Source of the DNA: Halomonas sp. BDJS001
GTDB taxonomy: Bacteria; Pseudomonadota; Gammaproteobacteria; Pseudomonadales; Halomonadaceae
Reading direction: 5' to 3'
NCBI RefSeq assembly: GCF_026104355.1
Contig: NZ_CP110535.1
Location: 620,001-684,000 of the forward strand
Length of the DNA: 64,000 nucleotides
Below are positions 1 through 11,710 of the stretch, in pieces (the stretch's first letter is position 1; each line of letters opens with the position of its first letter). Below the pieces are notes generated by a model, which saw only the letters and a program-made list of their open reading frames with translations, searched no databases and had not been told where the DNA came from. The position numbers were made by a program, and so were the translations under genes.

Positions 1-569
1 CGGCTGCCATCTGGGCGCTCCAGAGTGACACCCTTTACGCGCTGGGTGTTATCCACGTGCAAATCCACTACCCGTGCCTGGGTCAGAATATCAATGCCTG
101 CCGCTTCGGCAGCATTGAGCAACGCGCCCATCAGCTCTTCGCCGGTTCGCCTTGGCGTAGCATGCATGCGCAGGTGGCGGTGACCGGGGTAGAGAAAGCC
201 CTCCACCAGCTCAAAGGGCACGCCGTGCTGATCCGCCAGCCACTCGATGGTTTGGCCTGATTGAGTGGCGAGTAGTTCGACAATAGCGGGGTCTGCCTCA
301 AAACCGTTCTTCTTTTGAATATCTTCCGCCATGGCTTCAGCAGAGTCAGTGACGCCCAAATCATGCTGAAAGCGCGTATTGGCGGCGGGAATAAAGCCCG
401 ACGACATCGCCGTGCTGCCCCGGGGAAGCGCGTCGCGCTCTAAAACGGCAAGCTCTACGCCCGCTTCCTGGGCGGCCAATGCCGCGACCAAGCCGCAGGC
501 GCCCGCGCCGATGATCAGCAGCGGAAGGTGGGCGTCGAAGCCTTCGTGTGTATAAGGAAGTACCGCCAT
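1..569 (-). CDS. FAD-dependent oxidoreductase, fumarate reductase/tricarballylate dehydrogenase type (partial, C-terminus outside window)
   Basis: The visible 189 residues are the N-terminus of a flavoprotein of the succinate dehydrogenase/fumarate reductase/3-ketosteroid dehydrogenase superfamily. Near residues 15-35 there is a dinucleotide-binding motif (LLIIGAGACGLVAAL) followed by an acidic residue at the end of the second strand (LERD) and the family's GSTAMSSG stretch that contacts FAD. The start ATG overlaps the stop of the preceding deacetylase gene as TAATG, so it is the last visible gene of a translationally coupled operon running from about 4127. The remainder of the gene lies left of base 1. 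By family it would add or remove hydrogens across a carbon-carbon bond next to a carboxylate. The substrate cannot be read from this fragment. Confidence 0.85.
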   Translation of the reverse strand, partial: MAVLPYTHEGFDAHLPLLIIGAGACGLVAALAAQEAGVELAVLERDALPRGSTAMSSGFIPAANTRFQHDLGVTDSAEAMAEDIQKKNGFEADPAIVELLATQSGQTIEWLADQHGVPFELVEGFLYPGHRHLRMHATPRRTGEELMGALLNAAEAAGIDILTQARVVDLHVDNTQRVKGVTLERPDGS

Positions 570-1501
570 TACGCCTGCTCCGTTGCATGGTGGAAGGCAT
601 CCATAATCTCGCCCGCCGGAGCCTGCCATACCTCAGGGTGGCCACTGATATGGGCCAGCACTTCTTCCAGGCAGGCTATGCGGTGGGGCTGGCCCACCAG
701 CCAGGGGTGCAGGTTCAGGGCAAACAGGCGGCCACCCTGTTCGCGGGACTCTTCCAGCAGAAAATCGAAGGCGTCTTTTACCTGGGTTACCCAGGAGTCT
801 TCCGAATGCAGGTTCTGGCTCATCACGAACTGATCTTCAATTTCAGTCGCCAAGGGCATCATGGTCAAACTGCCCGTCTTGGTTTCACAGGAATATGGCA
901 TATCGTCATTCACCCAGTCGGCGCAGTACTCAATGCCGTTTTCTGCCAGCAGGTCAGGGGTGTTGAAACTCTGGTGCTTGGCCGGGCTTAGCCAGCCGCG
1001 AATAGGTTGACCGGTGACGCGGCGCAGAGTGTCCACAGAGCGCTTGACCAGCTCGGCTTCCTCTTCAACCGGCTGGCCGCCGTAGTGCAGGTGATCCATG
1101 TTCCAGCCGTGGGCGATAAATTCACCGCCGTGCTCTTTCAAGCGCTGCATCAGATAGGGCGTCTGCTCCGCTAACTGCGCATTGATTGCAAAGGTGGGCG
1201 TGATGTTGTGCGCCGCCAGCGCTTTGAGCACGCGATAGATTCCCACCCGGTTGCCGTAATCCCGCAGCGAGAAGTGGCGCAGATCCGGGTAGGGCATGGT
1301 CATGCCGTTAGGCACTTTAAACGGCTTGCCGCGTTGGTTAAGTGGGTAGAACTGCAGCGAGATATTGATCCACACCGCCAGGGTTTTGCCCTCGGGCCAG
1401 GTGACCGGTGGGCGTTCACTCAGCATCGACCATTCATAGCGCTCATGATCGTAGCCGTGGCGGCGGTAAGGGTAGTCGAGATAGTCGTCATTAAGCGCCA
1501 T
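569..1501 (-). CDS. polysaccharide deacetylase-fold amidohydrolase, PuuE-like (paralogue 2)
   Basis: A 310-residue cytoplasmic protein without a signal peptide. It belongs to the polysaccharide deacetylase (NodB/CE4) fold group that includes the PuuE type of allantoinase. Metal-site candidates are the histidines in IAHGWNMDH (mid-protein) and LNLHPW near the C-terminus; the classical TFDDG motif is absent and the matching stretch reads INISLQFYPL. I chose the ATG at 1501, four bases after the neighbour's stop; an open frame reaching 1654 would overlap the upstream gene by about 150 bases. It is a clear paralogue of the next gene upstream (shared RDYGNRVG, GHPxVW near the end). A cytoplasmic C-N hydrolase acting on a cyclic amide, ureide or imide is inferred; a cell-wall role is unlikely. 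Confidence 0.85.
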   Translation of the reverse strand: MALNDDYLDYPYRRHGYDHERYEWSMLSERPPVTWPEGKTLAVWINISLQFYPLNQRGKPFKVPNGMTMPYPDLRHFSLRDYGNRVGIYRVLKALAAHNITPTFAINAQLAEQTPYLMQRLKEHGGEFIAHGWNMDHLHYGGQPVEEEAELVKRSVDTLRRVTGQPIRGWLSPAKHQSFNTPDLLAENGIEYCADWVNDDMPYSCETKTGSLTMMPLATEIEDQFVMSQNLHSEDSWVTQVKDAFDFLLEESREQGGRLFALNLHPWLVGQPHRIACLEEVLAHISGHPEVWQAPAGEIMDAFHHATEQA

Positions 1502-1505
1502 AGCG

Positions 1506-2459
1506 TTACCCCTGTTTACTGGCGGTGGCGGCCTGGATCGCAATGCTGTCGAGTGCGGCATCGTAATAGTTGGCCAAGTAGTAATCGGCAATCTCACGGC
1601 CGGTGGCGACCCAAACATCCGGGTGGCCGGTGATGTACTCCAGCGCCTCTTCAAACGCCTTGATTCGGTGCGGACAGCTCACTTGGTAGTTGTGAGTGGG
1701 AATGCACATCACGGTGCCGGACTCCGCGCCTTCTAAATAGAGATGGTCAAAGTGGCGCTTGAGCATGGTGGCGTACTGGCGCGGCTCCACTTTGTTCACC
1801 GCGTAGACGATGGTGTCGTTCATCTCCAGCGAGTAGGGCATGGAGATAAACCGCTTACCGGAGCGAACGCTGATCGGCGTCGGCTGGTCGTCGTGGAATA
1901 GGTCGCAGGTGTAAAGCCCGCCTTTGTCGCCAAATAGCTCTTCGCCCACTTCGGCAAACAGATCCAGGGTGCGCTCGGAGTGGGAGAGTGCAGGGGCCAG
2001 ATAGCCCGCGCAGGCCTGACCGGTGTGGCGGTGAATGGTTTCCATGCTGTCGCGGATCATCGCCCGCTCTTGGTCTTCGCTCAGGCCGTAGGTGTAGCGG
2101 GTGTTGTAGATGCCGTGGCTGAAAAACTCCCAGTTGCGCTCGCGGCACATTTGGATAATCTCAGGGTGGTGCTCGCAGAGCGCCACCGACAGCGATATTG
2201 ATCCGCGAATGCCGTACTTCTCCAGCAACGCCATCTGGCGCTGGTGGCCAACCCGGTTGCCGTAATCGCGAATGCTGTAGCCGGGCACCGATGGGTGCGG
2301 ATGCGGCCAGGGGCTGCGCTGTGGGTTCTGCGGCGGGTCGAGTTCGTAGTACTCGATATTGGGCGCGACCCAAAAGGCCACTCTGGCACCTCCGGGCCAC
2401 TCGATTTTGGGCCGCTGGTCGTAGGCCCAGTAGTCGTAAACGCCTAATGACTCTTTCAT
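1506..2459 (-). CDS. polysaccharide deacetylase-fold amidohydrolase, PuuE-like (paralogue 1)
   Basis: A 317-residue protein of the same polysaccharide deacetylase/PuuE allantoinase-like group as its downstream neighbour, again with no signal peptide. The strand carrying the usual catalytic Asp reads VAPNIEYYEL, keeping the N-x-E pattern I associate with PuuE, and the metal-binding region reads FFSHGIYNTRYTYG with a later PTHNYQVSCPHR. The shared RDYGNRVG motif is at about residue 64. It lies 39 bases after the cysteine hydrolase gene and 4 bases before the second deacetylase gene, so the three are probably one transcript. Function in opening an amide or imide ring is inferred from family and neighbours; the substrate is not identified. 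Confidence 0.85.
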   Translation of the reverse strand: MKESLGVYDYWAYDQRPKIEWPGGARVAFWVAPNIEYYELDPPQNPQRSPWPHPHPSVPGYSIRDYGNRVGHQRQMALLEKYGIRGSISLSVALCEHHPEIIQMCRERNWEFFSHGIYNTRYTYGLSEDQERAMIRDSMETIHRHTGQACAGYLAPALSHSERTLDLFAEVGEELFGDKGGLYTCDLFHDDQPTPISVRSGKRFISMPYSLEMNDTIVYAVNKVEPRQYATMLKRHFDHLYLEGAESGTVMCIPTHNYQVSCPHRIKAFEEALEYITGHPDVWVATGREIADYYLANYYDAALDSIAIQAATASKQG

Positions 2460-2498
2460 AACCGGCTCCTCTTAAGCTTAGCGGTGGCTTGTGATGTC

Positions 2499-3164
2499 TC
2501 AGGCGTTACCGTTCAGCCACGCGAGTACATCGGCAACCGGCAACACGTCAGCATATTTAAGGTGCAGGTCGGTGAGGTTGGCGTAGTGGTAGCTTTCGTG
2601 TTTATCTGCGACGCACTCCATCGGCACGATAGTGCGGTAACCCCGGGAGAGGCTCTCCACGGCGGTGGCGCGAATGCAGCCAGAGGTAGAGCCGCCGGTG
2701 ATAATCACCGTATCGACCTGGTGCCACACCAGCAGCGACTGTAGTGGCGTTTCAAAAAACGCCGAGGGCATGCGCTTGGTGTAGATCACGTCGCGGCTGC
2801 GGTCGATGTCACAGCGCTCGTCGAACTCAGCGCGCTCGGAGCCGTACTTGATGTTTTGCAGCGAATCGGGGGTATCGGAGCGGGTGCCCCAAACGCCTGC
2901 ATCTTCGGCGGAGTCTAAAAAAGCCACATGGGTCCAGACTACCGGCCACCCTTTCTCCCGAAAACCGCGTGCCAGTTGGTTGGTGTACTCCAACTGCTTG
3001 GGGTCGGTTTCGTAAGCGGTTTTAAAGAGATCGGTGCGGGTGTAGGCCTTTTGCGGGTCAACGTTGACCAGCACCGCTTTATTGCCGAAGCCAAAAGGTA
3101 CCCGCTGGGGGTTGGCCATCACGTCGTTAAAAATCTCTTTCGCCGTTTTATCGGTGGTCTGCAT
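2499..3164 (-). CDS. isochorismatase-family cysteine hydrolase (amidohydrolase)
   Basis: 221 residues, the usual length for the isochorismatase-like cysteine hydrolase family, whose members include N-carbamoylsarcosine amidase, nicotinamidase and maleamate amidohydrolase. The catalytic triad is visible: Asp in LVNVDPQKAYT (about residue 36), Lys in YTKRMPSAF (about 130) and the nucleophilic Cys in GGSTSGCIRAT (about 163). The residues around the Asp and Cys resemble the N-carbamoylsarcosine amidase/maleamate amidohydrolase branch. It sits between the lyase and the two PuuE-like genes in one direction. A role in releasing ammonia from a half-amide made by the neighbouring ring-opening enzymes fits the context, but the substrate is an inference. 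Confidence 0.9.
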   Translation of the reverse strand: MQTTDKTAKEIFNDVMANPQRVPFGFGNKAVLVNVDPQKAYTRTDLFKTAYETDPKQLEYTNQLARGFREKGWPVVWTHVAFLDSAEDAGVWGTRSDTPDSLQNIKYGSERAEFDERCDIDRSRDVIYTKRMPSAFFETPLQSLLVWHQVDTVIITGGSTSGCIRATAVESLSRGYRTIVPMECVADKHESYHYANLTDLHLKYADVLPVADVLAWLNGNA

Positions 3165-3221
3165 TGTCGTCTCCTGAAATTGCTTATTTATAAGTCATTG
3201 GCACGCGTTGAGAAGCGAGCG

Positions 3222-4127
3222 TTAGCGATTGTCGTACTGCTCGCCAAGCTCCAGCATCGCCTGGGTGCCTAAGTAGTCGTTAAGTTGTTTGAAATCGAGC
3301 ATCTGGTCGCGGAAGGCATCGGTGGTGCCATCCTGTTTTAGCGTGGCAAAGAAACGGCTGGCCATATGGGTAATCGCTCGTACCAGCGCGCCGGGGAAAA
3401 TCACCAGTGAGAAACCAAGGTCTTCCAGCGCCTGGGCGTTCTGCAACGGGGTGTCGCCACCTTCGACCATATTGGCCATAATCGGCACCTTGCCTTTGAA
3501 CTGAGTCATGATCTTGCTGATATCTTCGTCGCTACGGATACCTTCGATAAACAGCATATCCACGCCCGCTTCGTAATAGGCCTGTGCACGCTCAATGGCG
3601 CTGTCGGTGCCTTCCACGCCAAGTGCATCGGTGCGACCGATAATCAGCGTGCTGTCGTTTTCCCGTGCGTCCAGTGCGGCATGTAGTTTGCCCACCATTT
3701 CGCTTTTGGAGACCAGGGTTTTACCGCGCAGGTGACCGCAGCGCTTCGGATAGGTTTGATCTTCCAACTGAATGGCGTTGGCGCCCGAACGCTCCAGCAA
3801 GCGCACGCTGCGCATCACGTTCATGGCGTTGCCAAAGCCGGTATCACAATCCACCACAACAGATAAATTTGTGCGTTCGCGAATATGCGACATTGCCGTA
3901 CAAATTTCGGTAATGCTGAGCAGGCCAATATCCGGCCGCCCCAGCTGGGTATAGGCCAGGCTGGCACCGGAAAGGTAGACCGTATCGAAGCCCGCCTGCT
4001 CGGCAAGTGAAGCGCCAAGGGCGTCAAACACGCCGGGGGCGACGACAATAGAGCTTTTCTGCAACTGCTGTTTAAGCTGGGTGGGCTGTCGTGAGGCCTG
4101 CTGAGAAGCAATCTGTTGGCGTGTCAT
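3222..4127 (-). CDS. isocitrate lyase/PEP mutase superfamily lyase (alkylmalate or methylisocitrate lyase-like)
   Basis: 301 residues, matching the short members of the isocitrate lyase/PEP phosphonomutase superfamily (2-methylisocitrate lyase, 2,3-dimethylmalate lyase, oxaloacetate decarboxylase). The Mg-binding strand VVDCDTGFG (about residue 92), the active-site signature KRCGH (about 128) and the loop glutamate in FIEGIRS are all present, so a true C-C lyase is likely rather than a PEP mutase. It is the first gene of the minus-strand operon, divergent from the GntR regulator gene, with a palindromic operator at 4262-4279 in its promoter region. By family it would split a 2- or 3-substituted malate-type acid to pyruvate or glyoxylate plus a smaller acid; the LeuCD-like hydro-lyase nearby would supply such a substrate. 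Confidence 0.88.
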   Translation of the reverse strand: MTRQQIASQQASRQPTQLKQQLQKSSIVVAPGVFDALGASLAEQAGFDTVYLSGASLAYTQLGRPDIGLLSITEICTAMSHIRERTNLSVVVDCDTGFGNAMNVMRSVRLLERSGANAIQLEDQTYPKRCGHLRGKTLVSKSEMVGKLHAALDARENDSTLIIGRTDALGVEGTDSAIERAQAYYEAGVDMLFIEGIRSDEDISKIMTQFKGKVPIMANMVEGGDTPLQNAQALEDLGFSLVIFPGALVRAITHMASRFFATLKQDGTTDAFRDQMLDFKQLNDYLGTQAMLELGEQYDNR

Positions 4128-4261
4128 AACAATCTCATTAAGTGTTGGTAAGCGTCAGCGCGGCTTATCGAGAGCCACCTGGTTAGCGATACTTCTGGGT
4201 GCTGGTTCTGTAATAATGGCTTTCAAAGGGCAGTAATTGTGTTACTAGTTGGCTGTTGATA

Positions 4262-4279
4262 TGTATTATATGTAATACA
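4262..4279. promoter_or_regulatory. palindromic operator TGTATTA-N4-TAATACA, probable GntR site 1
   Basis: Reads TGTATTATATGTAATACA, an inverted repeat with 7-base arms around TATG, extended by one more pair at 4261 and 4280. The same arms recur at 5181-5198 on the other side of the GntR gene. It lies just downstream of the candidate minus-strand -10 box, where a repressor would block the lyase operon, and also upstream of the regulator itself. Confidence 0.7.
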
Positions 4280-4309
4280 TTTTTATGTCTATTATTATCC
4301 CTGCGTCAA
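4280..4309 (-). promoter_or_regulatory. candidate promoter of the lyase/amidohydrolase operon
   Basis: On the minus strand a TTGACG -35 box (4309-4304) and a TAAAAA -10 box (4285-4280) are separated by 18 bases, and the palindromic operator begins directly downstream. The -10 is a weak match, so this is a candidate only. Confidence 0.4.
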
Positions 4310-4353
4310 GTATGATATGAATTTTTCGAACAACATCCTGAGGAGAGGCGTGG

Positions 4354-5160
4354 ATGAGTGAGGCACAATCCTCCGCGGTAGGCGGCACTAAATCCCACCG
4401 CATCTACCTGCTGCTGAAAGACGCTATTTTGAGTGGACGGCTGCCTGCGGGCAGTAAATTGCCCGGCGAAAATAAACTGGCGGAGCAGCATGGGGTGTCG
4501 CGAGTCACCGTTCGGCGTGCCATGGAAGCGCTGCAAGCGACAGGCATGGTAGAGCGTAAAGCCGGCGTGGGCACGGTGGTGCTGGAGCAGCCGTTGGATG
4601 CCACGGTGATGACCGCCAGTGTCTCAAATCTGATGCCCAATATGGTCAAGATGAGCCAGGCTTCCCAGGTGCGGTTGCTGGAGTTTGCCTATGTGCTGCC
4701 GCCTGAAATGATCCGCGAGCGGCTGGGTATGGCGCAGAGCGTAAAAGTTCAGCGCTCGGTACGGGTGCGCATGGTTGATGACAAGCCGTTTTCTCATTTG
4801 GTCACCCATGTGCCTGAATCGATTGCCCTGCACTACAACGAGATGGATTTAGCCAATACACCGCTGTTTGTGCTGCTAGAGCGCAGTGGGGTAAAGGTCG
4901 ACCACGCTTCCCAATCGATTTCCGCTACTTTGGCTAGCCATGAAGTGGCGGAGGCGCTGGATGTGGCCGTGGGGTCGCCACTGATCTCACTCACCCGCGT
5001 GGTGTTTGATGAGCAGGGCCGGGGGGTAGAACATCTGGATGCACTTTACCGTCCGGATCGTTATCGCTTCCAGATTGACCTGGAGCGCAACGGCGACGAT
5101 AACTCTCGCTACTGGGAGCCCAAAGTGAGCGGAATGCCCACCAGCGGGAAAGATATATAG
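4354..5160 (+). CDS. GntR-family (HutC/UTRA type) transcriptional regulator
   Basis: 268 residues. The N-terminal winged helix-turn-helix (about 14-80) shows the family pattern LKDAILSGRLPAGSKLPGE and VSRVTVRRAMEAL; the C-terminal half (about 100-245) is a UTRA ligand-binding domain, ending in the typical DALYRPDRYRF. A GAGGAG ribosome site precedes the ATG. It stands between two divergent halves of a catabolic island, with matching palindromes on both sides (4262-4279 and 5181-5198), so I infer it represses both halves until it binds a pathway substrate or intermediate. The inducer is unknown. UTRA regulators commonly respond to small carboxylates, amino acids or sugars. Confidence 0.92.
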   Translation: MSEAQSSAVGGTKSHRIYLLLKDAILSGRLPAGSKLPGENKLAEQHGVSRVTVRRAMEALQATGMVERKAGVGTVVLEQPLDATVMTASVSNLMPNMVKMSQASQVRLLEFAYVLPPEMIRERLGMAQSVKVQRSVRVRMVDDKPFSHLVTHVPESIALHYNEMDLANTPLFVLLERSGVKVDHASQSISATLASHEVAEALDVAVGSPLISLTRVVFDEQGRGVEHLDALYRPDRYRFQIDLERNGDDNSRYWEPKVSGMPTSGKDI

Positions 5161-5180
5161 AGATTTAGCCTATATTTTAA

Positions 5181-5198
5181 TGTATTAAATTTAATACA
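5181..5198. promoter_or_regulatory. palindromic operator TGTATTA-N4-TAATACA, probable GntR site 2
   Basis: Reads TGTATTAAATTTAATACA, a perfect 18-base palindrome. Its arms are identical to the site at 4262-4279. It lies between the regulator gene and the hydro-lyase/TRAP arm in an AT-rich stretch. This gives one operator in front of each transcription unit. Confidence 0.7.
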
Positions 5199-5304
5199 GA
5201 TTTAAAATTATAAAAAATACATTTGACCTGTGTTGTGAAACTGCGCTAGTTGTATTGGGTGAGAATGATAAGTCCAACAAAGGCCGAGGCAACGAGCGAC
5301 GACA

Positions 5305-6743
5305 ATGAGTACCCCAACAACGCTGTTTGACAAAGTTTGGCAGGCCCATGAGGTTCACCGCAGTGAAAGCGGACAGAGCCTGCTGTGGATTGACCGCCAT
5401 TTTGTCCACGAAGGCTCCTTTCACGCCTTCAATAAACTGGCTGAGCGCGCGTTGCCCGTAGCACGACCCGATTTAACCTTTGGCATTGCTGATCACTACG
5501 TACCGACGCTAGCCCGTGATTTGGCTGGCGTTGCCGACCCCAAAGTGCGCTCGATGATTGAGCAGCTCTCTCACAATACCCATCGGCATGGGGTGACGCT
5601 GTTTGGTCTTGATGACCCGCGCCAGGGTATCGTGCATGTGCTAGGCCCCGAGCAGGGGCTTACCCAGCCGGGCATGGTGATGGTGTGCGGCGATAGCCAC
5701 ACCGCCACCCACGGCGCCTTTGGCAGCATTGCCTTTGGGATTGGCGCCTCGGAAGTGGCCCACGTGCTGGCCACACAAACCTTGTGGCAGAGCAAGCCCA
5801 AGGTGATGCGGATTACCGTGGATGGCCAATTGGCCGAGGGCATCACCGCCAAGGATATCGCGTTGACCTGGATTTCACGCCTGGGCGCCGACGGCGCACG
5901 AGGCTACGCCATTGAGTACGCTGGCGAGGCGATTCGTTCGCTCTCCATGGAAGCGCGCTTAACGCTGTGCAATCTCTCGATCGAGGGGGGGGGCGCTGCG
6001 GCATGATTGCCCCGGACCAAACCACCTTCGATTACCTGCGCGAGCGCCCCTGGAGCCCGAAAGGGGAGACCTTCGAGCAAGCCTGCGCCTACTGGTCAAC
6101 CCTCTACAGCGATCCCGATGCCAGCTTTGATCTTGAAGTGACTCTGCATGCGGACGAAATCGCGCCCACGGTGACCTGGGGCGTCTCTCCCGAAGAGGCG
6201 CTGCCTATTGATCGCGCCGTACCTGACCCCGCACAGCTTAGCGACTCTGCAAAAGCTCGCCAGACTCGGGATAGTTTGGCCTATATGGGCTTAACGCCGG
6301 GGCAAAAGCTCACTGATATCACCATTGACCGGGTTTTTATTGGCTCCTGCACTAACGCTCGCATTGAAGACTTACGCGCCGCTGCCGCCGTGCTGGCCGG
6401 TCACAAGAGCCGCGTACCTGGCATGGTCTCACCCGGCTCGACCCTGGTAAAAAACCAGGCCGAAGCCGAGGGGTTAGACCGTATCTTTATCGATGCGGGG
6501 CTTGAGTGGCGCCACTCAGGCTGCTCCATGTGCGTAGGCATGAACGGGGATTTGGTCGCCAACGGTGAACGCTGCGCCTCCACCACCAACCGCAACTTTA
6601 AGGGCCGCCAAGGACCTGGTGCGCGTACCCACTTGATGTCACCTGCCATGGTGGCGGCGGCAGCGGTCAATGGACGGCTGACGGATGTACGTACGCTTCC
6701 AATGGCCGCTGCTTCACCCGGTCAGCCTTCAGGAGCGCGCTAA
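5305..6743 (+). pseudogene. LeuC/aconitase-type hydro-lyase large subunit, frameshifted at a G9 tract
   Basis: Two open frames together make one 4Fe-4S hydro-lyase large subunit of about 479 residues, close to the usual 465-480. The first frame (5305-6006) carries the N-terminal half with GDSHTATHGAFG and ends within the conserved NLSIEGG stretch. The second frame (entering at the G run, ending at 6743) resumes exactly at RCGMIAPD and carries all three cluster cysteines: SCTNAR (near 6348) and HSGCSMC (near 6522 and 6531). One extra G in the run at 5985-5993 would restore a continuous protein. Sequencing error, true mutation or slippage cannot be told apart here. The family isomerises or hydrates isopropylmalate, citraconate or dimethylmaleate. 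The absence of leuA/leuB and the adjacent TRAP and GntR genes argue for catabolism. The stop overlaps the small-subunit start as TAATG. Confidence 0.8.
5985..5993 (+). other. homopolymer of nine G at the frameshift
   Basis: Nine consecutive G follow TCGA inside the hydro-lyase gene. Ten would give an uninterrupted frame with an alignment of [13 protein letters not shown], equal in length to the family's usual IE-AGA-RAG-MVAPD. Such tracts are hot spots for both replication slippage and base-calling error. Confidence 0.85.
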
Positions 6744-7381
6744 TGCAACCGATTACCGTATTAAACACCCTTGGGGTGGCGCTTGCCGCAGCGAACGTGG
6801 ATACCGATCAGCTAATTCCTGCACGCTTTATGAAAGAGCCGCGCAGCGTGGGGTACGGTCAGTTTCTGCTTTACGACGTTCGCCACGACGAGCAGGGCAT
6901 ACCCAACCTAGAGTTTACGTTGCATCGCCCCAACGCGGATAAGGCCGAGGTGATGGTCAGTCGGCGTAATTTTGGTGCGGGATCCTCTCGTGAGGCGGCG
7001 GTCTATGCGCTGGTCGATTACGGCTTTCGCTGCGTGGTGGCGCCGAGCTTTGGCGATATTTTTGCCTCAAACGCCGTCAATAATGGCTTACTGCCTGCTG
7101 TCGTTGAAGAGGATGACGCCGAACGCCTGCTGGCAGCCCTTGGTGATGCACCGGCCGCAATTTACGTTGATTTGGAGAAGCAGGTTATTCGTGTCGCCGA
7201 AGTGGAAGTCAGTTTTTCCATTAACCCCGTATGGCGTACCAAACTGCTCAACGGCTGGGATGATATCGATATGACTCGCCAGCATGCTGGCACCATTACC
7301 GAGTTCGCAGCCCACTACGCAGCGCAGTTCCCCTGGACGGCGGCGCAGCCGCCAGAAAGCGCCATTATAAGTAAAGAGTAG
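6743..7381 (+). CDS. LeuD-type hydro-lyase small subunit
   Basis: 212 residues, the usual size of isopropylmalate isomerase small subunits. It has the swivelling-domain hallmarks NVDTDQLIPARF near the N-terminus and RRNFGAGSSREAAVYAL with SFGDIFASNAVNNGLLP in the middle, where the substrate-recognition loop lies. The start overlaps the large-subunit stop as TAATG, so the two are translationally coupled and should form a heterodimer. The neighbourhood (GntR regulator, TRAP transporter, ICL-family lyase) suggests hydration or dehydration of an alkyl-substituted dicarboxylate in catabolism, comparable with the dimethylmaleate hydratase of nicotinate fermenters. A leucine pathway role is possible in principle, but no leuA or leuB is near. 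Confidence 0.88.
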   Translation: MQPITVLNTLGVALAAANVDTDQLIPARFMKEPRSVGYGQFLLYDVRHDEQGIPNLEFTLHRPNADKAEVMVSRRNFGAGSSREAAVYALVDYGFRCVVAPSFGDIFASNAVNNGLLPAVVEEDDAERLLAALGDAPAAIYVDLEKQVIRVAEVEVSFSINPVWRTKLLNGWDDIDMTRQHAGTITEFAAHYAAQFPWTAAQPPESAIISKE

Positions 7382-7523
7382 TGGCAGTAACGCTATACCA
7401 AGAGTGAATGTCCATAAAAACAGCACGCACGCTTACAGCAGACGTTTATAAAAACGGCTTATAAGAAAGACACAGAAACAATAAACGCTATAACGCAGAC
7501 TACCTCGTGCAGGAGACTAACGA

Positions 7524-8522
7524 ATGAAAAAAGTAACGCTTACCCTGGGCATGCTCACCGCCCTGGCTTCCGCCCAGGCGCTGGCGCTTGATGAAATCAC
7601 CGCCGTGCATGCGTTTCCCCCCTCGCTGATCTATACCCAGAGCTTTCTCGAGTTCGTCGATAAGGTTAACGAACGCGGTGAAGGCGTGGTGAAGATCAAT
7701 GTGCGTGGCGGCCCTGAAGTCATCGGTCTCTCCGAACAGCCCGACGCAGTGCGCAACGGGGTGGTCGATATGGCCTACACTGCGGCAAGTTTCTACGCCG
7801 GTACCGTGCCTGAGCGCGATGCCATGGTGGCCTCCAATACCAATGCTATTTTCGCCCGTGAAAATGGCGGCATCGACCTGCTTAATGAAATTCATCAGGA
7901 GAAGATGGGCACCTACTACTTGGGCTGGTTCGACAGCGGGGTCAGCTACAACTTCTACACCATTGATGAGCCCACTATTGATGGCGAAGGTAATCTAAAC
8001 GTTTCAGGCCTACGCTTACGCAGTAACCCGGTATATGACGCCTTCTTCCAGGAGTACCTGGGCGCGCAGCCCATCAGCCTGCCGACCACCGATGTTTACG
8101 CGGCCCTGGAGCGGGGCGTGGTGAACGCGACCGGCTGGACGCAAATTGGCCTGAAAGACCTCAATTGGGATCGTTTTCTTAACTATCGGGTTGACCCTGC
8201 CTTCTTCTCTACCGATATGGGGGTGATCGTTAACCTGGATAAGTGGAACCAGCTCAGCGAAGAGTCGCAGCAAATTCTTCAGGAGGTCGCTATTGAGCAT
8301 GAGCGCGACAGCGCCGAACAACTGGCTGAATTAGCCAAGGAGCAGCAGGCTCAGCTTGAGGCCGAGGGCATGCAGGTCATCACTCTGGAAGGCGAAGCAG
8401 CGCAGCGTTTCGCAGACGCTGCCCGGGATGCTACCTGGGAGCGTATGCGCGGCCAGATGGAGCGCCATCCTATGGGGCTTGAACATTACGATACGCTGAT
8501 CGAAAAATTCAACGATTTATAG
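7524..8522 (+). CDS. TRAP transporter substrate-binding protein, DctP family
   Basis: 332 residues with a Sec signal peptide (MKK, hydrophobic core to about 20, probable cleavage after ALA before LDEITAV), so it is exported to the periplasm. The body matches the DctP/TAXI-like binding proteins: an arginine in the LRLRSNP strand (about residue 172), which in this family pairs with the ligand carboxylate, and the long helix-strand linker after it. An AGGAG ribosome site lies six bases before the ATG. It is followed by the two membrane subunits and preceded by the hydro-lyase genes, and probably captures the organic acid or amide acid that feeds the surrounding enzymes. Confidence 0.92.
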   Translation: MKKVTLTLGMLTALASAQALALDEITAVHAFPPSLIYTQSFLEFVDKVNERGEGVVKINVRGGPEVIGLSEQPDAVRNGVVDMAYTAASFYAGTVPERDAMVASNTNAIFARENGGIDLLNEIHQEKMGTYYLGWFDSGVSYNFYTIDEPTIDGEGNLNVSGLRLRSNPVYDAFFQEYLGAQPISLPTTDVYAALERGVVNATGWTQIGLKDLNWDRFLNYRVDPAFFSTDMGVIVNLDKWNQLSEESQQILQEVAIEHERDSAEQLAELAKEQQAQLEAEGMQVITLEGEAAQRFADAARDATWERMRGQMERHPMGLEHYDTLIEKFNDL

Positions 8523-8583
8523 AAACGTAGGGGCGCCGAGCGATCAAGCGCCCTATTTGTGTGGCTATTTTCTAGGGTTTCTT

Positions 8584-9090
8584 ATGCGCTACGCACAACG
8601 CGGCTATCTGCTGCTGCTCAACGGCATGGCCCTGCTGGCCGCCATCATGCTGGTTTGGCTGATGGTGGCCGTGGTGCTTTCGGTGGTGATTCGTAACTTG
8701 GGTCTTCAGCCCTCAGCATGGTTTTTCCTCTCCACCGAATACGCCATGTTCTACCTCACTCTGCTCGGAGCTCCCTGGCTGGTGCGCCAAAAAGGGCATG
8801 TGCACATTGAACTGCTGACCTCGGTGTTGCCACCAGCCACGCTGAATATCCTAAGCCGTGGGGTGTCACTGCTCTGTGTCATGGTGTGCGGCGTGCTGGC
8901 GTGGAAGGGGCTTGATCTGGTGCTGCTCAATATTGAGCGCACTGACTATGACGTGCGGGCTTTCTTTGTGCCGAAATGGATACTCACCATTGTCTTCCCT
9001 ATCAGCTTTACCCTGATGGCGATCGAGTTTGGCCGCTTTGTGGTGGGCCATGAAATTCTTCACAGCGGCGAAGCGGGGATTAAAGAATAA
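8584..9090 (+). CDS. TRAP transporter small membrane subunit, DctQ family
   Basis: 168 residues with four predicted membrane helices (about 10-38, 48-68, 88-110, 128-148 by eye) and the DctQ-like stretch EYAMFYLTLLGAPWLVRQKGHV between helices 2 and 3. I chose the ATG at 8584 over an upstream TTG at 8557 because the protein then starts just before the first helix. The stop and the next gene's start overlap as TAATG. It bridges the periplasmic binding protein and the DctM permease of this sodium-coupled importer. Confidence 0.9.
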   Translation: MRYAQRGYLLLLNGMALLAAIMLVWLMVAVVLSVVIRNLGLQPSAWFFLSTEYAMFYLTLLGAPWLVRQKGHVHIELLTSVLPPATLNILSRGVSLLCVMVCGVLAWKGLDLVLLNIERTDYDVRAFFVPKWILTIVFPISFTLMAIEFGRFVVGHEILHSGEAGIKE

Positions 9091-10403
9091 TGGAATGGTA
9101 CTTTGCGCTCGCTTTCCTACTCTCGCTGATTCTCCTTTTCATGGCGATTGGTACGCCCATTGCCTTGGCATTTTTGGCCGCCAATGTGATTGGTGCCTGG
9201 CACTTTATGGGCGGCCAAACCGGCATCTTGCAGATGCTCAACAACGGGTTTGGCGCACTATCGAGCTTTAATCTGGTGCCTATCCCGCTGTTTTTGCTGA
9301 TGGGTGAACTGTTTTTCCGTACTGGCTTAGGCATGAAAATGTTCAATGCCGTCGACCAGTTGATGGGCAAGCTGCCGGGGCGCTTATCGTATGTGACGGT
9401 GGTCGGTGGCACGGCGTTTTCTACCTTAAGCGGCTCCTCCATGGGCTCTACGGCGCTGATGGGATCGCTGCTGGTGCCGGAAATGGAGCGGCGCGGCTAT
9501 AAGAAGAAAATGGCGATTGGCCCCATTCTGGGCACCGGCGGTTTGGCAATCATTATTCCACCTTCTGCGTTGGCGGTGCTGTTAGCTACTTTGGCGAAAG
9601 TGGATATTGGTGCGCTACTTATCGCCGGTATTCTGCCGGGGCTAACGCTGGCGGGGTTCTATATCGCCACTATCTTTATCCAGACCAAGTTGGATCCGGA
9701 GGCCGCGCCAGTCTATGAGTTAGAGCCGGTGCCGCTTAGCGCCAAGCTCAAGTTGATAGTGACCGATATTCTGCCCATGCTCAGCGTAATGGTGATCATT
9801 GTCGCGATGATGCTGATGGGGTTTGCTACGCCTTCAGAAGCCGCCGCCTTTGGGGCTTTGGGCGTGATTATCCTGGCGTTTATTTTCCGCTGCATGACCT
9901 GGGAGGCGTTTAAGCTGTCGGTCACCGGGGCACTGAAAGTCACGCTGATGGCTTACTTAATCGTGTTTGGCTCGGCAACCTTTAGCCAGTTGCTCGGCTT
10001 CTCAGGTGCTTCAGGTGGTTTGATCGGCTGGGCAACCAGTTTTGATCTGTCGCCGATTCTGATGCTCCTGGCAATGTTTGCGGTGCTACTGGTACTGGGC
10101 ACCTTTATGGAGCAGATCTCCATCATGATGCTCACCGTGCCGATCTTCTTCCCACTTGCCCAGGCGCTTGGATTTGACCTGGTGTGGTTCGGTATCGTTG
10201 TTCTGCTGGCGCTTGAAATCAGCTTCTCAACGCCACCGTTAGGACTACTGCTTTTTGTGATGAAAGGTGTTGCGCCCGCGGGTACGACCATGAGCGAAAT
10301 ATACTCGGCGGCGATTCCCTATATCCTCTGTTCGATGCTGCTGGTGGCGGTGCTGATCGTGTTTCCGGGCCTCGCGACTTGGTTGCCCAGTATGCTGCAG
10401 TAA
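9090..10403 (+). CDS. TRAP transporter large permease subunit, DctM family
   Basis: 437 residues, nearly all hydrophobic, with about a dozen membrane segments; this matches the DctM family length and its hallmarks (AIGTPIALAFL at the start, FSTLSGSSMGSTALMGSLL and the repeat-like TPSEAAAFGALG, and the closing EISFSTPPLGLLLFVMKG). It carries out sodium-coupled import with DctQ and the DctP binding protein encoded just upstream. It is the last gene of the plus-strand arm; a strong hairpin terminator follows 30 bases after the stop. The substrate is unknown; TRAP systems usually import carboxylates or sulfonates, in line with the carboxylate-acting enzymes of this island. Confidence 0.92.
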   Translation: MEWYFALAFLLSLILLFMAIGTPIALAFLAANVIGAWHFMGGQTGILQMLNNGFGALSSFNLVPIPLFLLMGELFFRTGLGMKMFNAVDQLMGKLPGRLSYVTVVGGTAFSTLSGSSMGSTALMGSLLVPEMERRGYKKKMAIGPILGTGGLAIIIPPSALAVLLATLAKVDIGALLIAGILPGLTLAGFYIATIFIQTKLDPEAAPVYELEPVPLSAKLKLIVTDILPMLSVMVIIVAMMLMGFATPSEAAAFGALGVIILAFIFRCMTWEAFKLSVTGALKVTLMAYLIVFGSATFSQLLGFSGASGGLIGWATSFDLSPILMLLAMFAVLLVLGTFMEQISIMMLTVPIFFPLAQALGFDLVWFGIVVLLALEISFSTPPLGLLLFVMKGVAPAGTTMSEIYSAAIPYILCSMLLVAVLIVFPGLATWLPSMLQ

Positions 10404-10483: not shown

Positions 10484-11710
10484 CTACTCCCAGGCCGGGA
10501 AAGGGTCGGGCAGTCCCTTCCATACTTCCACGCCTTCCAGTAGCTCCGCCTCGCTCAGCAGACAGGCATCCAGTGCTTCACGCATCTTGGCTTGATCCAG
10601 GTTCTGGCCGATAAACACCAGCTCCTGGCGCATATCTCCGAACGGCTCCTGCCACTTCTCCATAATAAACTGACGCGTTTCGGGGTCGGTAGGCCAACGC
10701 TCTTCAGGAATTGCCTTCCAGAATACCCCGGCTGGGCCGTGGTGGGCGATGCCGCCTGCCTGGCTCCACTGACCGGCGGCTTGGGGGCGAGTGGCGAGCC
10801 AGAAGAAGCCTTTCGAGCGCAGCAGGCCCTTACCAAACCACTCCTGATTGAGCAGGTCATGAAATTTCTGCGGATGGAAGGGGCGACGGGCATGATAAGC
10901 AAAGCTGCCAATGCCGTACTCCTCGGTTTCGGGAACGTGTTCGCCGCGCATCTCTTTTAGCCAGCCTGGGGCTAGTTGGGCGCGCTCAAAGTTGAACTTG
11001 CCGGTATCCAGAACTTTATCCAGTGGCACGCCGCCCTGGGTGATCGGCACCAGCTCAGCGTCGGGGTTCAGCGAGTATAGGATAGCCTTTAGCGCTGCTA
11101 ACTCTTTCTCACTGATCAGGTCAGTCTTGCTGATCAACAGCACATCGCAAAACTCGATTTGATCGACCAGCAGGTCGGCGACATTGCGCTCGTCGTCTTC
11201 GCCTAAGCTTTCGCCCGCTTCAGCGAGGCTTTGCGCTTCGCGGTACTGTTCAAGAAAGTTGGCGCCATCCACTACGGTCACTAGCGTATCCAGCCGGGCG
11301 ACGTGGGAGAGGCTCTGGCCGCTTTCATCTTCAAAGGTGAAGGTTTCCGCCACGGGCAGCGGCTCGGAAATCCCGGTGGACTCAATGACCAGGTAATCGA
11401 ACTTGCCTTCCCGGGCCAACTGGCTGACCTCAATCAGCAGGTCTTCGCGCAGGGTGCAGCAGATACAGCCGTTACTCATCTCTACCAAGCGCTCTTCAGA
11501 GCGGTTCAGAGCAACATCGCCATCCAGCGCCGACTCACCAGGGCCACCCCGCACCAGTGCACCGTCGATGTTCACCTCGCTCATATCGTTAACGATGACC
11601 GCCACCCGGCGGCCTTCACGGTTGGCGAGAATATGATTGAGGACGGTGGTTTTACCAGCACCCAAAAAACCCGAGAGCACCGTCACGGGCAAGGGAGTAA
11701 ATGCGGTCAT
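10484..11710 (-). CDS. COG0523 (CobW C-terminal) GTPase, zinc metallochaperone, ZigA/ZagA-like
   Basis: 408 residues. A P-loop GFLGAGKT sits near residue 14, the family metal-binding motif GCICCTLR near 82, and an altered G4 motif SKTD near 195; the CobW C-terminal domain with a WLATRP stretch follows. These GTPases deliver zinc to client enzymes under limitation. A probable Zur box lies at 11737-11756, just upstream of the start, which supports a role in zinc homeostasis rather than cobalamin synthesis. The gene stands alone, facing the TRAP operon across a shared terminator. Alternative metals cannot be ruled out from sequence only. Confidence 0.9.

Follow-up and report, generated by a model that had tools for sequence, protein, structure and literature searches.

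Gene content of the locus

We analyzed a 64,000-nucleotide window of the Halomonas sp. BDJS001 genome (bases 620001-684000 of a single 4.97-Mb contig, G000) that opens with a cluster of catabolic genes arranged in two divergent runs, whose starts lie around 4130-4350. The minus-strand run encodes, in order, an isocitrate lyase (ICL)-family lyase, a cysteine hydrolase, two amidohydrolases that we call imidases A and B, and a flavoprotein. The plus-strand run encodes a GntR/UTRA regulator, the LeuC- and LeuD-type subunits of a hydro-lyase, and the TRAP transporter proteins DctP, DctQ, and DctM. A first-pass annotation had named these co-located families (two amidohydrolases, a cysteine hydrolase, LeuCD, a lyase, a flavoprotein, GntR/UTRA, and TRAP), and Pfam/NCBIfam assignments confirmed their presence; DctQ was named from its position and from homologs at related loci. 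The annotation had also called the set self-contained. Its members are present, but the flavoprotein gene is cut by the window edge, and a frameshift in LeuC had been missed.

The cysteine hydrolase and imidases A and B form what we refer to as the triad. Imidase A (1506..2459, minus strand) matches the PuuE allantoinase structure 3cl6 (E-value 6.9e-21) and imidase B (569..1501, minus strand) matches Polysacc_deac_1 (2.9e-11). Matches to PuuE and deacetylase structures place both in the PuuE/polysaccharide-deacetylase fold family, as expected of cyclic imide hydrolases of the P. putida YZ-26/HxnM type, an assignment at the level of the family and not of an imidase subgroup. Allantoinase identity was ruled out, as A and B score 108.2 and 119.3 bits against the PuuE allantoinase model TIGR03212, far under its cut-off of 424.6 bits. 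Imidase A is 48-95% identical to eight aligned relatives. In alignments of 70 and 76 sequences, each imidase has its own near-invariant set of polar residues, and two aligned histidines are kept in both (H115/H131, 100% and 95%; H256/H265, 100% and 95%).

The cysteine hydrolase (2499..3164, minus strand) is of the isochorismatase type (PF00857, 3.1e-27). Its closest structure is 4l07 (1.4e-27), followed by 4l08, 26st (2.4e-24), and 3ot4/3uao (3.2e-20). We take 4l07 and 3uao to be the maleamate amidases Ami and NicF, respectively. The cysteine of the Halomonas protein aligns with that of 4l07, and the same position is alanine in 4l08. From these relatives, the protein is presumed to be a half-amide (maleamate-type) amidase.

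The ICL/PEP-mutase family lyase (3222..4127, minus strand; PF13714, 4.2e-44) carries the KRCGH motif and scores 296 bits against the methylisocitrate lyase model for PrpB (TIGR02317), under its cut-off of 354.4. Its top-scoring PDB entries are a methylisocitrate lyase (3eoo, 3.2e-58) and the petal death protein (1zlp, 5.8e-55). The 2,3-dimethylmalate lyase 3fa3 (1.7e-46) sits below 11 other distinct sequences in this ranking. The first-pass proposal of a dimethylmalate lyase was thus not borne out: the best scores are to methylisocitrate lyases, yet the protein falls under their cut-off. The genome holds two further lyases of the family, one of them with an aconitase-type gene about 2 kb away, and a KRCGH-bearing paralog is present outside the cluster.

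The large hydro-lyase subunit (LeuC, 5305..6743, plus strand; Aconitase in Pfam) is frameshifted and read in frames 5305-6006 and 5967-6743. LeuD follows at 6743..7381 on the same strand (Aconitase_C, 5.2e-22). Both subunits score above the 3-isopropylmalate dehydratase cut-offs, with 669.9 bits for the LeuC of the related locus L016 (cut-off 560.25) and 173.6 bits for LeuD (TIGR00171, cut-off 116.25). Against the LeuD/DmdB model TIGR02087, LeuD reaches 74.1 bits, under the cut-off of 108.95, and was not assigned to DmdAB. The cluster LeuC is not the sole copy in the genome; a second one (G000:C1:2642083-2643519) is 55% identical to the L016 protein. We rejected leucine biosynthesis as the role of the cluster because of this separate LeuC at 2.64 Mb.

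The flavoprotein gene starts at 569 on the minus strand and, judging from L015:7148-8569:-, extends about 850 bases beyond base 1, so that 1..569 holds its N-terminal part (FAD_binding_2, PF00890, 2.2e-58; best PDB match 1qo8, 3.2e-59). It is related to flavocytochrome c, fumarate reductase, and urocanate reductase, and resembles the soluble fumarate and urocanate reductases. In the alignment it is without the Arg of the fumarate reductase NRLGGN stretch, which we take to be a substrate ligand in those enzymes; its substrate therefore need not be a fumarate-like diacid. The tricarballylate dehydrogenase TcuA model NF006130 gives 166.7 bits, under its cut-off of 369. On the plus strand, the solute-binding protein DctP (7524..8522; PF03480, 1e-30) is nearest to 4mnc (6.6e-50), whose ligand is benzoylformate. 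The small permease DctQ is an open reading frame at 8557..9090 with a homolog in 29 of the 80 loci described below, and the large permease DctM (9090..10403) scores 274.7 bits against TIGR00786 (cut-off 268.45). From its position, the GntR/UTRA regulator (4354..5160, plus strand; UTRA 9.7e-32, GntR 9.3e-21) may control the whole cluster.

Conservation and distribution

The cluster is a real, widely conserved catabolic gene set and not a chance grouping. We searched a genome collection with an alignment of imidase A and kept the loci of the best 80 of at least 569 relatives, a set that leans to close relatives because only the best-scoring ones were kept. Genes at these loci were counted by tblastn, since the gene caller skips genes in G+C-rich loci. 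Neighboring genes are named as families only where they were checked with Pfam, and other neighbor names are leads; a Pfam scan of one 60-residue fragment gave no match. The triad is colinear in 79 of the 80 loci, the exception (L066) being a contig whose start lies within imidase A. In 28 of the 80 loci, 10 or more of the 11 cluster genes occur together at 50% identity or more. The genes do travel together, as the first-pass annotation had expected of them.

Near-full clusters were found in Halomonas, Vreelandella, Billgrantia, Marinobacter, Saccharospirillum, and several alpha- and betaproteobacterial metagenome-assembled genomes, and the closest named loci are from Halomonas/Vreelandella. 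A lyase search returned close copies (93 and 96% identical) in two of nine other genomes, and the cluster neighborhood was examined in both. Across a class-level draw of 369 genomes, imidase A has a match at E <=1e-40 in seven and at 60% identity or more in four, including the Halomonas genome itself.

Imidase A also matches 84 plasmid records at 1e-20. Of the eight plasmids examined, seven carry annotation, and in each of these, homologs of imidases A and B come after an isochorismatase-family gene; on the Terrarubrum plasmid the third triad gene is labeled "hypothetical" and has a 33% match to imidase B. On a Burkholderia plantarii plasmid (L028), GntR, LeuCD, flavoprotein, and ICL-family genes stand beside the triad. 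This plasmid was typed as conjugative and also carries ETF and acyl-CoA dehydrogenase genes.

Downstream of the Halomonas cluster, on the opposite strand, lies a gene that resembles CobW-type GTPases (10484-11710). The same neighbor adjoins the cluster in L016; the flank of L017 differs and has no such gene after the cluster.

Alternative partners of the triad

In the 52 loci without a full cluster, we counted partner genes in flanks of up to 10 kb. LeuC homologs were found in 22, ICL-family lyases in 13, HMG-CoA-lyase-like (HMGL) genes in 20, and CaiB-like CoA-transferase genes in 28. An ICL or HMGL lyase is present in 29 of the 52, and LeuC occurs together with either in 20. A rough binomial estimate for LeuC in 22 of 52 loci is 1e-21, assuming six LeuC-like sites in each genome and a window of 21 kb, and is overstated given the relatedness of the loci. 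CaiB-like and HMGL-like genes are absent from all 28 full clusters, and the pair may represent an alternative, CoA-dependent cleavage route. This second route lies outside the window covered by the first-pass annotation.

Triad-linked LeuC proteins split into separate clades, with Bacteroidota members only 27-30% identical to the window type. The trees cover a chosen subset of 28 named loci, with 24 sequences for the lyase and 28 for LeuC, and were flagged for long branches. In flavobacteria (L090, L093, L100, L102, and L103), a long fixed gene order surrounds the triad, with names given mostly by resemblance: aldehyde dehydrogenase-, HMGL-, LeuC-, LeuD-, carboxymuconolactone decarboxylase-, and CaiB-like genes precede it, and transporter-, SDR-, hydrolase-, and nitrilase-like genes follow.

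The separate LeuC clades and the presence of ICL or HMGL lyases indicate that one core is paired with different hydratases and with two lyase chemistries that are unrelated. The bond cleaved by methylisocitrate lyase, and likewise by HMG-CoA lyase, adjoins a tertiary carbon that bears a hydroxyl and a methyl group. Cleavage of tertiary 2-methyl hydroxy-acids, common to both lyase families, fits a methyl-ALKYLMALEIMIDE, that is, a methyl-alkylmaleimide substrate. Hydration of a 2-methyl-3-alkylmaleate at the methyl-bearing carbon would yield just such a tertiary carbon. Hematinic acid has a methyl group and a propionate side chain. The maleimides named in one leaf study (methyl, methyl-ethyl, and methyl-vinyl; in the part of PMC7318184 considered here) all carry a methyl group.

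Tetrapyrrole-related genes near the triad

Genes resembling those of tetrapyrrole breakdown stand near the triad in some marine gammaproteobacteria. In Pseudohalioglobus, a match to red chlorophyll catabolite reductase (RCCR; PF06405, 1.8e-15) lies 6.8 kb away from it. The Halioglobus homolog matches PF06405 at 1.5e-19, and its PDB matches at E up to 1 are to plant RCC reductase only (3agb, 3.5e-13). The two bacterial proteins of this family that we list are L077:3548-4408, matched in the PDB by plant RCC reductase only, and L085:3077-3898. Chlorophyllase-family genes lie near the triad in Halioglobus (3.7e-13) and Litorivivens (1.7e-10), although other alpha/beta-hydrolase families match these genes too. 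Rieske/VanA_C and Amdase-family genes were found near triads in other genomes.

We then compared the frequency of RCCR in 37 triad genomes (36 picked from the imidase A loci to span lineages, plus that of the window) at the PF06405 cut-off of 24.9 bits. RCCR matches occur in 11 of the 37, 10 of them above the cut-off, versus 3 of the 369 genomes in the class draw. One genome (G377) is both among these three and among the four with a close imidase A. In all 10 genomes above the cut-off, an RCCR-like gene is on the contig of the triad, 6.6-68 kb away. Stretches of 60-100 kb around five triads (L129-L147) contain two RCCR matches per genome and share HMGL- and CaiB-like genes as well as genes whose Litorivivens members Pfam assigns to the acyl-CoA dehydrogenase, CN_hydrolase, and Amdase families. 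Rieske oxygenase, LeuCD, and ICL genes occur in four of the five; none were seen in the Litorivivens stretch.

Leaves contain hematinic acid at levels comparable to those of propentdyopents, and while maleimides went undetected in that study, earlier reports from senescent leaves and sediments are mentioned in the sections considered (PMC7318184). Excerpts of a second source name pyrrole-maleimides as degradation products of tetrapyrrole pigments and cite a paper on the release of hematinic acid from heme by ChuS (PMC8669743).

Proposed pathway and alternative explanations

From gene content, families, conservation, and context, which were observed directly, we infer substrates, products, and an order of steps. 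The TRAP importer would take up a carboxylated imide, with hematinic acid as our best guess. Imidases A and B, as separate enzymes or one heteromer, would open the ring to a maleamate, and the cysteine hydrolase would release ammonia to leave a 2-methyl-3-alkylmaleate. LeuCD would then add water, placing the hydroxyl on the methyl-bearing carbon, and the ICL-family lyase would cleave the product to pyruvate and an alkyl acid, which would be glutarate if the substrate is hematinic acid and butyrate if it is methyl-ethyl-maleimide. A possible role of the flavoprotein is to desaturate a succinimide derived from the reduced ring of chlorophyll. Imide-to-alkylmalate chemistry is probable. The order from uptake through imide opening, half-amide hydrolysis, and hydration to C-C cleavage, already put forward by the first-pass annotation, draws support from the nearest relatives and the context (HxnM, 4l07, and the colinear triad).

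We consider that the physiological substrates may be methyl-alkylmaleimides, most likely derived from tetrapyrroles (chlorophyll or heme), a reading to which we give slightly less than an even chance. More tentatively, and on balance doubtful, the triad could mark a previously undescribed bacterial pathway for the mineralization of chlorophyll and heme. Under this broader proposal, marine loci of up to about 100 kb would hold RCC-reductase-like, Rieske oxygenase, and chlorophyllase-like hydrolase genes and perhaps several maleate/alkylmalate branches, one per kind of pyrrole ring. Halomonas-type bacteria would retain the last module only and live on maleimides released by others.

Several observations weigh against a tetrapyrrole-derived maleimide as the substrate. 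In the window itself, a run of nine G marks the point where LeuC breaks into two overlapping frames, perhaps through a sequencing or assembly error or through a genuine loss; the same-genus relatives L016 and L017 have the gene as a single intact frame (479 and 480 aa). The cluster itself contains no tetrapyrrole gene, and the PF06405 search found no RCCR match in the Halomonas genome. Within the fetched flanks of the 80 loci, RCCR-like genes occur in five, Rieske genes in five, and chlorophyllase-like genes in three, leaving 72 loci with none of these. Bacteroidota are absent among the eight positive loci, and two Bacteroidota genomes searched whole (G396 and G407) gave no RCCR match. Distant triads (Salipiger and Terrarubrum) stand with different gene partners. 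Staygreen had no match in the 37 genomes, but the controls had none either, so its absence is not shown. PaO-type ring opening was rejected as part of the route: PF08417 matches in 6 of the 37 genomes, two above the cut-off, and is unlinked to the triad in four of the six, lying on another contig in G390, G395, and G402 and at 4.78 Mb in the single-contig Halomonas genome, versus 0.62 Mb for the cluster. Counts across the 60-100 kb RCCR-linked loci are not independent because the genomes are related. Published trees, in the portion of PMC10151467 considered, place RCC reductases as the outgroup of bilin reductases, and a bacterial member may therefore act on another bilin.

We also examined a gammaproteobacterial family of 40 genomes (f185), chosen because G377 belongs to it. 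RCCR matches occur in 33 and imidase A in 15, all of them within the 33 (p 0.026). Above the curated RCCR cut-off, the proportions are 12 of 15 with imidase A versus 18 of 25 without (p 0.43). Of the 15 genomes with both genes, 14 have them on separate contigs (most of these assemblies are fragmented), and the single-contig genome G419 has them about 620 kb apart. RCCR-like genes therefore do not require the triad, and their linkage is not general. RCCR was often present in this family without the imidase triad. The contig placement led us to lower the maleimide reading from an even chance to just under it, to lower the chlorophyll-route proposal by a similarly small step, and to raise two alternatives slightly. 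The tetrapyrrole substrates suggested by the first-pass annotation draw some independent backing from RCCR-like, chlorophyllase-family, and Rieske genes near triads elsewhere and are disfavored by the f185 genomes.

One of the alternatives keeps the chemistry from imide through half-amide, alkylmaleate, and alkylmalate to the lyase and replaces the substrates with compounds unrelated to tetrapyrroles, such as fungal or plant alkylmaleimides or alkylsuccinimides, so that tetrapyrrole genes near triads would mark a few lineages only. The 72 loci without such neighbors, the Halomonas genome without RCCR, the unlinked genes in f185, and triads on plasmids of soil and plant bacteria all agree with it. 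We nevertheless regard it as rather unlikely, given that all 10 genomes above the RCCR cut-off carry RCCR within 68 kb of the triad on the same contig. A pyridine- or pyrimidine-type ring, broken down as nicotinate or uracil is, with the imidases opening a glutarimide or cyclic ureide, seems less probable still. No nicotinate hydroxylase, ring dioxygenase, or pyrimidine enzyme was found among the cluster proteins scanned, none of which is a member of a nicotinate or pyrimidine pathway, and the RutB and biuret hydrolase models score 20.7 and 28.8 bits against the cysteine hydrolase, far under their cut-offs. What speaks for such a ring, and against a maleimide, is that 26st, among the nearest structures of the cysteine hydrolase, is an N-carbamoylsarcosine amidohydrolase; in addition, the Terrarubrum triad is near a gene annotated rutA, the Salipiger triad is near hydantoinase/oxoprolinase genes, and HxnM is proposed to act on 3-hydroxyglutarimide in nicotinate breakdown (PMC9304392, in part). 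Finally, LeuC (L016) and LeuD scores above the 3-isopropylmalate dehydratase cut-offs would suit a spare leucine/propionate-type module of LeuCD and a methylisocitrate-lyase-like enzyme beside unrelated amidohydrolases. This is very improbable in view of the separate LeuC, the two further family lyases in the genome, and the 28 of 80 loci in which at least 10 of 11 genes travel together.

Comparison with known systems

Among the literature matches listed, no paper describes the gene set of this cluster or combines at least four of six of its families, and none names genes for bacterial alkylmaleimide use or bacterial chlorophyll mineralization. If the tetrapyrrole reading is true, three adjacent genes would serve to mark the final steps of tetrapyrrole mineralization, and the question would be open to simple growth and enzyme assays in a cultured Halomonas relative.

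The imidases find a parallel in Aspergillus nidulans HxnM, a proposed cyclic imide hydrolase that shares 64% identity with a Pseudomonas putida cyclic imide hydrolase homolog and resembles the peptidoglycan deacetylase HP0310 in structure (PMC9304392, sections considered here). As in the cluster, an imidase of PuuE/HP0310-related fold (HxnM) is followed by an amidase (HxnN). However, the proposed substrate is 3-hydroxyglutarimide, and those sections of the report describe no hydratase or lyase.

Plant chlorophyll breakdown shares RCC-reductase- and chlorophyllase-family genes with the surroundings of the triad in some marine relatives, but PaO is unlinked and the cluster in the window has no such genes. 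The lyase belongs to the same family as PrpB of the methylcitrate cycle, with the KRCGH motif and a presumed 2-methyl hydroxy-acid substrate cleaved to pyruvate, although it scores under the PrpB model cut-off and a KRCGH paralog exists elsewhere in the genome. Solved structures of the maleamate amidases NicF and Ami rank among the closest to the cysteine hydrolase. These amidases act on maleamate from nicotinate or nicotine, whereas no nicotinate or nicotine genes were found among the cluster proteins scanned.

The nicotinate fermentation of Eubacterium barkeri ends with dimethylmaleate hydratase and 2,3-dimethylmalate lyase. Like the Halomonas cluster, it pairs a LeuCD-type hydratase with an ICL-family lyase. 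The two differ in that the LeuD of the cluster falls under the LeuD/DmdB cut-off and its lyase is nearer to methylisocitrate lyases than to the dimethylmalate lyase 3fa3, and in that the cluster adds imidases and an amidase to this pair.

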